33,708 nt of DNA from Thermoproteota archaeon (lineage in GTDB: Archaea; Korarchaeota; Korarchaeia; Korarchaeales; Korarchaeaceae). Below are positions 17,777-33,708 of the stretch, in pieces (within the stretch, counting starts at the first letter, position 1; each line of letters begins with the position of its first letter). A program made the position numbers and the translations under genes. The notes below the pieces were generated by a model. That model searched no databases. It was given only the letters and a program-made list of their open reading frames with translations, and was not told where the DNA came from. The DNA is taken from the NCBI GenBank assembly GCA_027491435.1, contig JAOZFG010000009.1, forward strand, positions 1-33,708. Reading direction: 5' to 3'.

Positions 17777-17814
17777 AAATTGTTTTATTAGTTATATTGC
17801 TAATTTAGTAAGTG

Positions 17815-18342
17815 ATGGCCATGACCGGGAGCAGGTTAGCGATCAAGGTGAGCCTGTTAGCTATGTTCTCCGTGCTGGCCTTCTTAGCGGCCATCATAGT
17901 TAAGCTAACCGTGAGTTATGGGGCCATAGTTTACGCTATAGTTTTGTTAGTGGGTGTATTGACACTCAAGGAGCCCTACGGCGCTACAGCGATATCGCTG
18001 ATAGCCGGCTTGCTGTACAGCTTTCAGTCCGCCCTTTTCCTGTTCATACTTGGGGCCTTCCTAGTTAGAGGACTTAGTATAGACGTTCTTTTTAACGCCC
18101 TAGGAGTCTACAAGACGAGGGATTACAGAATCTGGGCTATAGTGCTTACCATGACCGTCTCCAGCTTCCTGGCTGGAGTTTACCAGTACTTCTTCCTGGT
18201 CCTGTTCCTGAAGAAGCTCATCGATTTCGGAGCCTTCATAGTGTCGACAATATTCTTGGTGGCCTTAGTCTCCAACGCCTTAGCTGGATACTTGGTGCCC
18301 AAGTACGTGATGCCCAAGGTTGAGAAGGCCTTAAAGCTATGA
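17815..18342 (+). CDS. Integral membrane protein, ECF transporter S-component-like
   Basis: Protein of 175 aa with five or six helices and little outside the membrane, the size of vitamin-binding S components of ECF transporters. The stretch LIAGLLYSFQSALFLFILGAFLVRGLSIDVLF resembles the central helices of that group. No ECF ATPase or T component is in the window, so it would share them from elsewhere, if the assignment holds. Starts at GTG 17812, ATG 17815 and ATG 17821 are all possible; I give 17815. GAGGTGAT at its stop serves the radical SAM gene, so it is the first gene of that operon. It may import a cofactor or precursor used by the two enzymes. Confidence 0.6.
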   Translation: MAMTGSRLAIKVSLLAMFSVLAFLAAIIVKLTVSYGAIVYAIVLLVGVLTLKEPYGATAISLIAGLLYSFQSALFLFILGAFLVRGLSIDVLFNALGVYKTRDYRIWAIVLTMTVSSFLAGVYQYFFLVLFLKKLIDFGAFIVSTIFLVALVSNALAGYLVPKYVMPKVEKALKL

Positions 18343-18351
18343 GGTGATCTA

Positions 18352-19455
18352 ATGACGCATTTAAGGGCCTTATTCACGCCTAAAGATCCTTTAGAAGATG
18401 CAGAGAGGGCGGCTATGGCTTCTTTGAGGAGAGGAGGTGTTAGCAGCGTTATCTGGGTGGTAACCGAGAGGTGCAATCTCAGGTGTGTCCACTGCTACGA
18501 AGGGGGCAGAGAGCTACCCAAGGAGCTCGGCAAGGAGGAAGCTTTGAAAGTCGTAGATAAGCTATATGAAGCCGGAAAACCGCTTACCTTCATATCCGGA
18601 GGGGAACCTCTGCTTAGAGACGATATAATGGAGATACTGGGCAGGCTGAAAGATCTGGGATTTAGGGTGATTCTTAGCACTAACGGAACCTTAGTTACAC
18701 GTGAAGTGGCCAAAGAGCTGTCTAGAATAGGGGTGGACAACGTGGCAATACCCCTTTACGGGCCTAGGGAGTTCCACGACAGCTTCACAAGGGTGCCTGG
18801 ATCGCACGATAAGGTGATTAACTCGCTGAAACTCCTGAGCGATTTGGGGGTTGGATTAACCGTTAAGACGGTAGTCGCCAAGAGCGTGATGCCTCACATC
18901 AACTACATATTCGACGTGGCCGAGCAATATGGTGCTAGAGCTGTGTACCTCTGTGATTTCATTCCTATAGGGAGGGGGGCTTATCTCAAGCACGAGGTTC
19001 CGACTAAGGATCAATGGAGGAGCCTCCTAGACTCATTTATAGAGAAGATGATCCTGGGGAACGAATACGACGGCGTGGAGATAGATATAGGGCTTCACCC
19101 CTCCACGGCCATATACGTCATGAGGAGGTTGGAGGAGCTGGGATATGACGTGTCTCAGGCCAGGAGTAAAATGGAGAGAAGAAGGCTTTCTGTGGAGGGT
19201 AGAGGTTTCCTATCCATATCCCCTCAGGGAGACGTTCTTTTAAGCAATTACCTGCCGATAAAACTGGGCAACGTGCTTGAGGACGACTTGAAGGAGATCC
19301 TCGAGAACCCCATATACAGGGATGCCGGCGATTCGAGTAAGTTGAAGGGGAAGTGTGGTTCTTGCCCTTACAAGGAGCTCTGTGGAGGGTCCAGGGTAAA
19401 GGCCTTCGTCTACACTGGAGATCTGCTCGGGGAGGATCCGACTTGCGTCATATGA
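18352..19455 (+). CDS. Radical SAM/SPASM protein, AhbC/NirJ-like
   Basis: Enzyme of 367 aa. The radical SAM cluster is C41-x3-C45-x2-C48 (TERCNLRCVHCYEG), followed by FISGGEPLLRDD (the GGE motif) and STNGTLV. The C-terminal SPASM-type site has C335, C338, C344 and C365 (GKCGSCPYKELCGGSR, then GDLLGEDPTC). The ending CGGSRxxAxxxTGDxxxEDPxC is characteristic of AhbC, AhbD and NirJ, which remodel haem side chains, and of related peptide-modifying enzymes. Its four-base overlap with a second such enzyme recalls the AhbC/AhbD pair. No other haem genes are present, so the substrate is undecided. Confidence 0.85.
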   Translation: MTHLRALFTPKDPLEDAERAAMASLRRGGVSSVIWVVTERCNLRCVHCYEGGRELPKELGKEEALKVVDKLYEAGKPLTFISGGEPLLRDDIMEILGRLKDLGFRVILSTNGTLVTREVAKELSRIGVDNVAIPLYGPREFHDSFTRVPGSHDKVINSLKLLSDLGVGLTVKTVVAKSVMPHINYIFDVAEQYGARAVYLCDFIPIGRGAYLKHEVPTKDQWRSLLDSFIEKMILGNEYDGVEIDIGLHPSTAIYVMRRLEELGYDVSQARSKMERRRLSVEGRGFLSISPQGDVLLSNYLPIKLGNVLEDDLKEILENPIYRDAGDSSKLKGKCGSCPYKELCGGSRVKAFVYTGDLLGEDPTCVI

Positions 19456-20546
19456 ACTTCAACGAGAGGCCCATCCTGGTCTTCTGGGAGACCACCAAGG
19501 CGTGTAAGTTGAAGTGCAAACACTGCAGGGCAGAGGCGATACCTGAGCCGCTGCCTGGTGAGCTGACCACTGAAGAGGGCTTCAAACTCATCGAGGAGCT
19601 GACTAAGTTCGGGAAGCCTTATCCGATCCTCATATTAACTGGAGGCGATCCTATGCTCAGGCCCGACCTTGAAGAGCTGCTGACCTATGCTGAAAGTAAG
19701 GGCGTAAAGGTGGGAGTGGCCCCTGCCGTAACGGAGCTTCTGAAGGAGAGGTTAAACCTACTCAGAAAGCATGGAGTTAGGTACATATCAATAAGCCTGG
19801 ACGGCATGAAGGAGACCCATGAGAGGATAAGAGGTGTAGATGGCCACTTTAAAGAAACGGTAGAGCTGCTCAAATCGCTAAAGGGGGATTGGATGCTGCA
19901 GGTCAACACGCTCGTCTCCAAGGAGACGGTAAACGACCTTCCCAAGGTGGCCAAACTGTTAAAGGACTTGGGTATAAACGTGTGGGAGCTCTTCTTCCTG
20001 GTTAAAGTCGGAAGAGGGACTGAGCTTGAAGAGCTCACCCCCGAGGAGAATAGAGACGTCTCTCACTTCCTATTCGAGGTTTCTAGGTATGGATTCGAGG
20101 TAAGGACCGTAGAAGCTCCTTTCTTCAGGAGGGTCTACTTGACCAGGTTAAGAGATGGGCTTAGCGACTTGAAGGAGGTTGTTGAGCGTTATAGCCTAGG
20201 AGAGCTGTACGTAAAATTAACAAAAGAGCTTATTAGTTTGCTAGGTGAGCCAGGCAAGCCCAAAGAGCTTAAATCGGCCTTCACGAGGGATGGATATGGT
20301 GTAATATTCGTATCTTATGATGGCAACGTCTATCCAAGCGGATTCGCCCCTTATAGCTTGGGAAACGTCAAAGAGGATAGCCTGGTCAGTATATACAGGA
20401 GCCATCCCGTACTGATTAAGATAAGGGCTGGGGAATTCAAAGGGAAGTGTGGAACCTGTGAGTACAGGGAGGTATGTGGGGGAAGCAGAGCTAGGGCCCT
20501 GGCCGCAGGAGACATACTCGGGGAGGACCCTGGCTGCCCATTTTAG
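19452..20546 (+). CDS. Radical SAM/SPASM protein, AhbD-like (TIGR04053-type)
   Basis: Enzyme of 364 aa starting at ATG 19452, which overlaps the upstream stop as ATGA; a longer reading from 19353 is inside the first enzyme. The cluster site is C18-x3-C22-x2-C25 (TTKACKLKCKHCRAEA). The next motifs, GKPYPILILTGGDPMLRPDL and RYISISLDGMKETHERIRG, closely follow AhbD/TIGR04053 proteins. The SPASM site has C333, C336, C342 and C362. AhbD converts Fe-coproporphyrin to haem by decarboxylating propionates; relatives modify peptides. The tandem pair behind an S-component-like gene suggests one pathway on one substrate. Confidence 0.87.
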   Translation: MNFNERPILVFWETTKACKLKCKHCRAEAIPEPLPGELTTEEGFKLIEELTKFGKPYPILILTGGDPMLRPDLEELLTYAESKGVKVGVAPAVTELLKERLNLLRKHGVRYISISLDGMKETHERIRGVDGHFKETVELLKSLKGDWMLQVNTLVSKETVNDLPKVAKLLKDLGINVWELFFLVKVGRGTELEELTPEENRDVSHFLFEVSRYGFEVRTVEAPFFRRVYLTRLRDGLSDLKEVVERYSLGELYVKLTKELISLLGEPGKPKELKSAFTRDGYGVIFVSYDGNVYPSGFAPYSLGNVKEDSLVSIYRSHPVLIKIRAGEFKGKCGTCEYREVCGGSRARALAAGDILGEDPGCPF

Positions 20547-31297: not shown

Positions 31298-32107
31298 ATG
31301 TCCATGAGTGGTAAGGTTTACCTAGGGTTGGCCGCTTTCCTCTGGGGAACTCTAGGCCTAGCTGCAAGCATAGCCATGAGAGAGGGCATGAGCCCTGAGT
31401 CCATAAGTTTCTTCAGGGCTTTCATAGGTTCGTTAGTCGGGATCCCGTTGGTGGGCAAGAAGTTCTTAGATAGAAAGCTTATCCTGTTGGGATTGGCGTT
31501 TACCGGGCCTCTCTACCTGAGCTACGTCTACAGCGTCAGGTACTCTGGGATAGGGGTGGCCGCTGCCCTACTCTACTTGGCCCCTTCGATAGTAGTGCTG
31601 CTCTCCCCCAAGCTCTTGGGGGAGAGGATAACTCCTAGGAAGGGGCTGGCCGTATCCCTAGCCACTATAGGGGCGGTGATCACCCAAGTGAGGGGAGGGG
31701 AGTTCAGTCCCAACCCTGTTGGAATTGCCTTCGGCCTTATTACCGCCTTCTCCTATGCTGGAATAATAATGTACGTCAGAAAGTTAGTTTCCACGGGCTA
31801 TGAGCCCATACACGTGGGGATAGCCCCTCAGCTATGGGCCTCCCTCGAGCTACTTCCTTTCTCGTTCAGGGGGGAGATCACCCTAGCTGGGTTAGGAGCC
31901 GTCCTTTACTTGGGAGTCTTCACAGCAGCCTTAGCTTACGTCCTTCAAGCTAAAGGGCTGGAGTTAATGGATGCAGGAAGCGCCAGCGTGATGTCCACCT
32001 TGGAGCCCCTTGTAGCTCTCATTATAGGGCTGTTGATCGGGGAGGACGTGGGACTAGGGGGGATTCTGGGATCCCTCATGATAATATTGGCGTCAGCTAT
32101 CATTTAG
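31298..32107 (+). CDS. EamA/DMT-family metabolite exporter
   Basis: Integral membrane protein of 269 aa with ten predicted helices in two EamA repeats. The first repeat opens LAAFLWGTLGLAASIAMREG and contains SFFRAFIGSLVGIPL; the second contains AGIIMYVRKLVSTGYEP and ends near GSASVMSTLEPLVALIIGLLIGED, the usual close. DMT carriers move amino acids, sugars or other metabolites; the substrate is unknown. It is slightly shorter than typical (about 290-300 aa). ATG 31298 and ATG 31304 are both possible; the box A spacing favours the first. Its end overlaps the convergent threonine-synthase-like gene by 15 bases. Confidence 0.9.
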   Translation: MSMSGKVYLGLAAFLWGTLGLAASIAMREGMSPESISFFRAFIGSLVGIPLVGKKFLDRKLILLGLAFTGPLYLSYVYSVRYSGIGVAAALLYLAPSIVVLLSPKLLGERITPRKGLAVSLATIGAVITQVRGGEFSPNPVGIAFGLITAFSYAGIIMYVRKLVSTGYEPIHVGIAPQLWASLELLPFSFRGEITLAGLGAVLYLGVFTAALAYVLQAKGLELMDAGSASVMSTLEPLVALIIGLLIGEDVGLGGILGSLMIILASAII

Positions 32108-33187
32108 GCTGTAAAGTGCCACTTTTCTTCTTCCCCTCATGACGTGCCTTACCCTAACTTTGCGCTCCGACACTAGCCTGTTCAAAGCCAGATACACCCC
32201 TTGCAGGGTTGCCCCCTTGAGCTCCTTCCATATCTGGTAGGCGGTCTTTTCCCCCTCGGATAGGGACTTAATTACCTCCTCTTGCAGGTGGCTAGATTTC
32301 TCCCTTAATTTGGGAACCTTCCTCATCCCTGTTGCGGTTAGGACTGCCACGTACCCAGTTGACTTGGAGACGTGATACGCCATGGCCGACACCGGCTTTA
32401 CCACTACTCCGACCCTGGATAAGGAGAGAAGGGCATACAAGGCGTCTCTAGCCTTAACCCTGACCACCTTAGCCCCTAGCCCTTCCACGAAGTCCAGCAT
32501 GGGGTGGTTAGCCTCCTCGTGGGCAGCCAACACCACTTGAGGTGAGTTAAGGAGGCCCAGTTCCTCGAGCTCCTGAAATCCCCTAACTACGCTGTAACCC
32601 AGGAACCCGGTCTCCGCTGGCAGCACTACTCCCCTAGGACTTAACTGCTCGTACAGCTCATATGCCAATGTTTTAAATCCTTCCAGCATTAAAGGGTTAT
32701 GATATGAGAGAGATGGATCAATTTTATCAAAAGTTATGTCAACTCCTGTGTTCGCTAAGTAAAGCAGCTCCGTCAGGTCCACGTCTTCAGGATCGACGCT
32801 CACCCTTACTCTAGAGCCTAAGGCCAGGAGGTACTCCGAGATAGAGAGAGTCAGGTCCTTCTCAAACCTGAGGCTAACTTCGGAAGGCCTAAGAACGTTT
32901 GCCAGTACAGCTGAGCCCCTGTCAGCGTAAGATCCAGTGGGATTCCTCGTCTCATCTTTGACCTGAACTCCAAGGACCTTTCTGACTGGAGTTACCCCCT
33001 CTCCCAGGCTTACCCCCTTATCTCCGGGCAACATCCCCCTGTAACGCCATATGCTGGCCTCCTTCTCATCGACCTCCCACCTCTTATCCAGCATGAGCTC
33101 CGTGTAGAAGCCACATCGGGGGCACCTATCCTTAAGCCCGGAGAACTCAGCCCCGCACTTGATGCACCTGACCCTCAGCTCGGGCAC
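32093..33187 (-). CDS. Threonine-synthase-like protein without PLP lysine, fused to a winged helix
   Basis: Protein of 364 aa from GTG 33187. Residues 8-25 are a zinc ribbon (C8, C11, C22, C25). LGEGVTPV (61-68) and DETRNPTGSYADRG (78-91) align with threonine synthase, where the last motif is NPTGSFKDRG. The PLP-binding Lys is Ala here (A88, codon 32924-32926). The Ser-Gly-Asn-Thr-Gly loop that holds PLP phosphate is replaced by FEKDLTLSISEY. The fold continues through GVVLPAETGFLGYSVVRGF, HEEANHPML and MAYHVSKSTGYVAV. The last 65 residues are a winged helix (KTAYQIWKELKGATLQGVYL then HVMRGRRKVALYSL). It cannot be a PLP enzyme as written and may be a ligand-responsive regulator. It overlaps hyuB by 41 bases. 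Confidence 0.85.
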   Translation of the reverse strand: MPELRVRCIKCGAEFSGLKDRCPRCGFYTELMLDKRWEVDEKEASIWRYRGMLPGDKGVSLGEGVTPVRKVLGVQVKDETRNPTGSYADRGSAVLANVLRPSEVSLRFEKDLTLSISEYLLALGSRVRVSVDPEDVDLTELLYLANTGVDITFDKIDPSLSYHNPLMLEGFKTLAYELYEQLSPRGVVLPAETGFLGYSVVRGFQELEELGLLNSPQVVLAAHEEANHPMLDFVEGLGAKVVRVKARDALYALLSLSRVGVVVKPVSAMAYHVSKSTGYVAVLTATGMRKVPKLREKSSHLQEEVIKSLSEGEKTAYQIWKELKGATLQGVYLALNRLVSERKVRVRHVMRGRRKVALYSLNDS

Positions 33188-33708
33188 CTTCCCTTCCTCT
33201 AAGCCTCTTGGTCTCCTCCCAGTCTAACTCGTACCCGCCGTCCTTAACCTTCACCTTGACCCTATAGTACTTAAGGGCAGACTCCGGCGAGACTTTTCCG
33301 TCCATCACATCCTCTAAAACTAGCTTCGGATCCCTGTTTGCGGGATTTCCGTATCCCCCGCCTCCCGGGGTGTTTATGCTCACAACGTCCCCCTTCCTCA
33401 GCTCCACCGTGTCCTTAGCTGAAAGCCTGATCACAGAGCCGTCTGACCTTACGACTAGATGCTCTCCACTCGCCCCTTCCATTCCCCCTCTAAGGCCCCA
33501 GGGCCTGAGCTTGACCCTCTCACAGGCTATTGACAGGGTAGCCCTCTCCGACAAGACCTTGAACTTCCTGGTTATGCCCAGACCTCCTCTGTATTGACCT
33601 GGACCCCCTGAGTCCTCCCTCAGGCTGTACTCCACGATGAGTTTGGGATACTCGCGCTCTATTACCTCTATAGGGGTGTTCATCGTGTTTGTCATATGGG
33701 TGTGAACG
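33147..33708 (-). CDS. hyuB: Hydantoinase/oxoprolinase subunit B (HyuB), C-terminal part
   Basis: The frame is open to the window edge, so the N-terminal two thirds lie outside. What is seen starts VHTHMTNTMNTPIEVIE, a conserved HyuB stretch, and continues with EDSGGPGQYRGGLGITRKF, RPWGLRGGMEGASGEH and STINTPGGGGYGNP-like INTPGGGGYGNPANRDP, the family's late motifs. With HyuA these enzymes hydrolyse hydantoins or 5-oxoproline using ATP. The tail after ESALKYYRV is longer than usual by about 30 charged residues and overlaps the start of the threonine-synthase-like gene. An ATG at 33695 is internal, not a start. Confidence 0.92.
   Translation of the reverse strand, partial: VHTHMTNTMNTPIEVIEREYPKLIVEYSLREDSGGPGQYRGGLGITRKFKVLSERATLSIACERVKLRPWGLRGGMEGASGEHLVVRSDGSVIRLSAKDTVELRKGDVVSINTPGGGGYGNPANRDPKLVLEDVMDGKVSPESALKYYRVKVKVKDGGYELDWEETKRLRGREGARAEGQVHQVRG

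Follow-up and report, generated by a model that had tools for sequence, protein, structure and literature searches.

The gene at positions 32093-33187 of the window, the 33,708-nucleotide stretch of DNA analysed here, is best read as encoding a one-component transcription regulator and not an enzyme. Its core would be a threonine-synthase fold incapable of PLP chemistry, and a C-terminal PadR-like winged helix would bind DNA. We regard as probable the explanation as a whole, in which such a regulator served ancestrally in PLP- or B6-responsive repression and changed its ligand in Korarchaeum, the genus to which the window genome and its congeners most likely belong.

A threonine-synthase fold without its cofactor residues

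The gene, its neighbours and the parts of the protein discussed below are located as follows (window coordinates).
31298-32107, plus strand: EamA/DMT-like transporter gene, convergent with the regulator gene; family name from the sequence by eye
32093-33187, minus strand: gene (GTG start, 364 aa) for the threonine-synthase-like protein that lacks the Lys and ends in a winged helix; from ORF call, Pfam, NCBIfam and orthologues
33147-33707, minus strand: hydantoinase-B/oxoprolinase-like gene, C-terminal part, directly upstream of the regulator gene; identified by eye
33113-33166, minus strand: zinc ribbon C8-C11-C22-C25, invariant in 14 aligned orthologues
32915-32944, minus strand: NPTGSYADRG motif, with A88 (codon 32924-32926) in place of the Schiff-base Lys; from alignment
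32852-32866, minus strand: former asparagine loop, STGNT replaced by F108-E-K-D-L112; from alignment to the catalytic paralogue
32600-32614, minus strand: former Gly-rich phosphate loop, GNAGN replaced by E192-T-G-F-L196; from alignment to the catalytic paralogue
32105-32290, minus strand: C-terminal winged helix, residues 300-361; from the AlphaFold2 model and PadR/HTH_27 Pfam matches in relatives

The open reading frame runs on the minus strand from 33187 to 32093. Pfam assigned the protein to PALP (E 2e-16) and found no HTH and nothing significant for the tail. In NCBIfam the best family, as for most of its relatives, is PRK05638 (NF004170/PRK05638.1), named 'threonine synthase', in which the window protein scores 118.6 bits, far below the cut-off of 421. 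The hydantoinase-B-like gene overlaps the regulator gene by about 41 bp and is interrupted by the contig end. Here and below, the names EamA, ArsR-like, acyl-CoA dehydrogenase, ThrB and hydantoinase were given by eye from the sequences.

The protein shares with threonine synthase (ThrC, PLP fold type II) its fold, its ancestry, the PALP domain and the N-terminal zinc ribbon of archaeal synthases. The initial annotation had described the zinc ribbon and the NPTGS motif as intact and the expected Schiff-base Lys as alanine; the four cysteines and NPTGSY are indeed present, and the alanine at position 88 was confirmed. It had also reported the loss of an SxGNTG phosphate loop. That motif is gone, but it was substituted at equal length (STGNT to FEKDL) and not deleted; moreover, it corresponds to the asparagine (cofactor-ring) loop, and the true phosphate loop, GNAGN, is gone as well (ETGFL). 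An internal deletion leaves the core roughly 50 aa shorter than that of the catalytic enzyme. Compared with threonine synthases, the window protein therefore lacks the Schiff-base Lys of NPTGSFK, the asparagine loop S[ST]GN and the Gly-rich phosphate loop and carries an additional winged helix, while the overall fold is retained in the AlphaFold2 model and in its Foldseek matches. Four residues that the alignment places at or close to the former cofactor site, D111, E192, K264 and P265, are invariant in the 14 aligned sequences, which include that of the window.

The AlphaFold2 model of the window protein, built with 80 homologues, has a mean pLDDT of 93.9, and its best Foldseek matches are threonine synthases (TM by query up to 0.69). 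As previously proposed, the C-terminus is modelled as a winged helix (residues 300-361), with helices at 300-309, 316-322 and 328-340 and strands at 344-351 and 354-361, and not as part of the enzyme fold. For L018, a relative from Korarchaeia that keeps the loops, a full-length synthase core with a C-terminal winged helix was likewise obtained from the model (pLDDT 90) and from Foldseek. HTH_27 scored above its cut-off in two orthologues. PF03551 (PadR) did so in seven of ten relatives tested, two Korarchaeum orthologues and one Sulfolobales member falling below the cut-off; the window protein gave no match. A PadR-like winged helix would be the feature in common with PadR; the C-terminal dimer domain of PadR is absent, and the putative sensor is a threonine-synthase fold.

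A complete or near-complete orthologue (45-51% identity) was found in 14 of 15 congeners, one of them shortened by a contig end, and the fifteenth congener holds an N-terminal fragment at a contig end. Every congener orthologue that covers the Lys site has V or I there, and among these orthologues alanine is peculiar to the window protein. Among close pairs (four close sequences) dN/dS was 0.065-0.118, a sign of purifying selection, with higher values in the winged helix than in the synthase part. By these comparisons the Lys-less protein is neither chance nor a sequencing error. Homologues with Lys at this position and a normal loop were also sought; there are none among the orthologues, and in the wider family the Lys is present in six winged-helix forms of one Bathyarchaeal clade. 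A catalytic threonine synthase, whose presence in the same organism had been raised as a question, is encoded on contig 7 (C7) with its Lys intact, followed by a homoserine-kinase-like ThrB.

One family across the Archaea

Relatives were gathered by an alignment scan of named genomes and by profile searches, with which the counts were widened because the scan patterns were partly biased to Lys-less forms; a single-protein scan of genome contigs found nothing. By the titles of their records, the relatives belong to Korarchaeia, Bathyarchaeia, Nitrososphaeria, Methanomethylicota and Culexmicrobium, and further ones to Thorarchaeota, Thermoplasmata, Sulfolobales, Desulfurococcales and Thermococci. 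The winged helix is present in 105 of 166 distinct sequences. Among these 105 the Lys is absent in 99, which have A, I, L, M, V or R instead; of the 61 forms that lack the winged helix, 57 have the Lys. Three of the four Lys-less forms without the winged helix are probably shortened by contig ends; the fourth is a bacterial protein from Thermogemmatispora (L142:7848-9212), which has alanine at the Lys site, intact loops and no winged helix. The six Lys-bearing winged-helix forms make up one Bathyarchaeal clade nested among Arg forms, and a perfect link between loss of the Lys and gain of the winged helix was therefore rejected.

When the tree was computed with the winged helix and the Lys column removed, a single branch set the winged-helix forms apart from all others (SH-aLRT 97; the method was a quick one and gave long-branch warnings), and the Korarchaeum genus clade groups with L061. 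On this tree the archaeal family has a single origin, in which a threonine synthase gained a winged helix; the Schiff-base Lys would have been lost in nearly all lines. The asparagine and phosphate loops are kept in most family members and are both gone in the Korarchaeum genus. A PLP-shaped pocket is thus plausible in most of the family. Arg-form regulators L113, L124 and L127 lie near a conserved gene that by eye resembles threonyl-tRNA synthetase.

The Lys-less relatives L018, L021, L022, L030, L065, L066 and L094 have a Lys in the asparagine loop (KGN for STGN). A catalytic Lys might have moved there, or to K264 in Korarchaeum, leaving the proteins enzymes; loops such as FKGNL, VKGNL and AKGNV, together with the normal Lys of the six winged-helix forms, speak for this reading. 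We hold it to be very improbable, since the KGN Lys occurs in only a few relatives and is missing from both the Korarchaeum genus and the Arg clade, and since the phosphate loop is gone in the Korarchaeum genus.

One Thermococcus member, whose Lys is replaced by Arg and whose tail is PadR-like, reaches 785 bits in PRK05638 against the cut-off of 421, and for this Lys-less winged-helix protein the name 'threonine synthase' looks wrong. Searches of the open-licence literature for threonine synthase with winged helix or PadR, for fold type II regulators and for PRK05638 returned no description of the family, which is apparently a widespread and undescribed family of archaeal regulators.

Vitamin B6 genes often adjoin the proposed regulator

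Loci were compared where each side of the gene had a flank of 800 bp or more. PF07155 (PdxU-family ECF transporter) or pdxS/pdxT lies within 700 bp of the gene in 47 of 77 distinct winged-helix loci outside the Korarchaeum genus and in none of 45 loci of Lys-bearing forms that lack the winged helix (Fisher 1.5e-13, a value that overstates the case because related sequences are not independent). The other 30 of the 77 have no B6 neighbour. In five distinct family members pdxST is divergent from the regulator. The identities of the PF07155 and SOR_SNZ/SNO neighbours were checked by Pfam. PF07155, equal to COG4720, includes two of the three B6 transporters given as characterised in prokaryotes, PdxU and PdxU2/HmpT, with the substrate verified only for PdxU2/HmpT (PMC9997740); the substrates of the transporters considered here are inferred from their family. 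In the phylum of the window genome, pdxS is absent from 26 of 29 genomes and PF07155 is present in 28, and the phylum may therefore depend mostly on B6 uptake. Outside the genus, six of the eight genomes of this phylum that carry the winged-helix form have PF07155 next to it.

This gene link across the family points to PLP or a B6 vitamer as the ligand, and the ancestral role was most likely vitamin-B6-responsive repression. The ancestral sensor would take up PLP, or a B6 vitamer, non-catalytically in the former cofactor pocket and so read its level. The ligands first suggested, an amino acid, a phosphohomoserine-like compound or a hydantoin product, found no support in the neighbourhoods. The hydantoinase neighbour in particular is specific to the window genome; at that place the congeners have other genes, an acyl-CoA dehydrogenase and a corrinoid protein flanking the regulator.

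The regulated vitamin might be other than B6, with PF07155 carrying thiamin, its pyrimidine precursor or something else and the pocket sensing that compound or a related phosphate ester. PF07155 is broad and extends to S components for other vitamins, the ECF matches in NCBIfam are no more than weak, and an AIRS protein (ThiL/HypE-like) is the operon partner of PF07155 in several loci. Against these stand the divergent pdxST genes and the fact that the sensor fold has PLP as its natural cofactor, and we think this reading rather unlikely.

A sensor of threonine or phosphohomoserine, keeping the substrate site and controlling threonine synthesis or export, would fit the ancestry of the fold. 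The neighbourhood of the regulator repeatedly holds EamA-type transporters, whose family has threonine/homoserine exporters among its members, and a Lys-bearing threonine synthase lies within 700 bp of five family members. Four of these five are the Bathyarchaeal loci L238, L240, L243 and L257, from which a link to threonine may exist in the family. PF07155, however, is on the other side of the regulator in all four, the thrC-thrB pair of the window genome lies elsewhere with no regulator copy beside it, and both pocket loops are lost in the Korarchaeum genus. As an account of the family, threonine sensing appears improbable to us, and B6 sensing is the probable ancestral role that we retain.

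A candidate operator at the regulator promoter

Family members in which the Lys is replaced by a hydrophobic residue share an upstream palindrome, CCTATATATAGG, which sits a few bases downstream of a TATA-like element, ATATATAAG. In this AT-rich DNA, dyads were counted 8-14 times, against a maximum of 2 in shuffled sequences. The 12-mer occurs exactly once in each of eight out of 16 genomes. Seven of these sites are just upstream of the regulator gene, and the eighth (G046) is inside an unrelated coding sequence. When the upstream ATAT was included, all seven sites in 19 genomes were at the regulator, and the reversed-pattern control gave 0. Widening the pattern to the pdxST-linked variant added no sites. 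The palindrome was not found upstream of the window gene, and upstream regions in the Arg clade and in the Korarchaeum genus had no conserved palindrome. The consensus operator of PadR, ATGT-N8-ACAT, was sought upstream as well and is absent. In L196 (89-1060) and L221 (3012-3917), EamA-like transporter genes lie across the palindrome from the regulator, in the place of the divergent gene.

We consider CCTATATATAGG a candidate operator at the regulator promoter. We propose DNA binding and repression: the regulator would act from a palindromic operator just downstream of the TATA-like element, on its own gene and on the adjacent PF07155/PdxU-family transporter or pdxST. The protein could instead be a pseudoenzyme that binds the catalytic threonine synthase or another protein, with the winged helix as a protein-protein module; the genome does encode a catalytic paralogue, winged helices can bind proteins, and DNA binding is itself a prediction. 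Against such a role stand a conserved operator-like palindrome at the promoter and divergent transporter genes, and we judge it a quite improbable alternative to transcriptional control.

A probable change of ligand in Korarchaeum

Neither the window gene nor its orthologues in the genus have a B6 neighbour. In the congeners the regulator gene is downstream of an acyl-CoA dehydrogenase gene, an MtbC-like corrinoid protein gene lies directly downstream of the regulator in 12 congener loci, and EamA-like genes occur within 1.5 kb of it in eight congeners. The corrinoid protein had no match in the window genome, in a search run without a positive control, and a corrinoid partner was set aside as an explanation of the window copy. 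In G004 as well as in the window genome, another winged-helix gene, ArsR-like, is divergent from PF07155, which is followed by an AIRS-like gene. The arrangement was located in Korarchaeum at two places.
L273:3076-5220: PF07155 and AIRS (HypE/ThiL-like) pair, divergent from an ArsR-like winged-helix gene
L275:2832-4947: PF07155 and AIRS (HypE/ThiL-like) pair, divergent from an ArsR-like winged-helix gene

L061, which stands closest to the Korarchaeum clade in the tree, still adjoins PF07155. We infer that in Korarchaeum the transporter passed to another regulator, and that the present one changed both ligand and targets. Since the PLP pocket and the B6 neighbours are lost, the Korarchaeum members probably sense something other than B6. 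The pocket appears rebuilt, with D111, E192 and K264 fixed in the 14 aligned sequences and both PLP loops gone. For this reason and for the loss of the B6 neighbours, the effector of the window protein is most likely another small ligand, and its targets would be local genes.

Elsewhere in the window, at 17812-20546, a membrane protein gene is followed by two radical SAM genes. A look-alike of this cluster at L277:359-3038, taken as K. cryptofilum, is followed directly by pdxS and pdxT, which have no counterpart in the window genome.

Relation to known regulators

The closest parallel is with the MocR/GabR regulators, PdxR especially, in which the fold of a PLP enzyme has likewise been turned into a sensor and fused to a winged helix. 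In MocR proteins, which are absent from Archaea, a GntR domain is joined to a fold type I aminotransferase, and PdxR regulons in Bacteria comprise pdxST, pdxK and pdxU (PMC5320631). Genes of this kind adjoin 47 of the 77 distinct relatives and are lacking beside the window gene and in its genus. In contrast to MocR, the archaeal proteins are of fold type II, have a C-terminal PadR-like domain and have mostly lost the Lys; Pfam found no GntR domain and no fold type I aminotransferase in the window protein and its relatives, and PALP instead.

On balance we favour, by a modest degree of belief, an unrecognised archaeal family of B6 regulators derived from threonine synthase, sensing PLP non-covalently and acting at a palindromic operator, with the Korarchaeum proteins rebuilt for another ligand after takeover of the transporter by a different regulator. 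A description of an archaeal vitamin B6 regulator was not found in the open-licence literature; the bacterial one, PdxR/MocR, is absent from Archaea. If this is true, a family labelled 'threonine synthase' in archaeal genomes gains a very different function, and its tree would present a series leading from an enzyme to a sensor using the PLP site, and on to a sensor with a rebuilt pocket.
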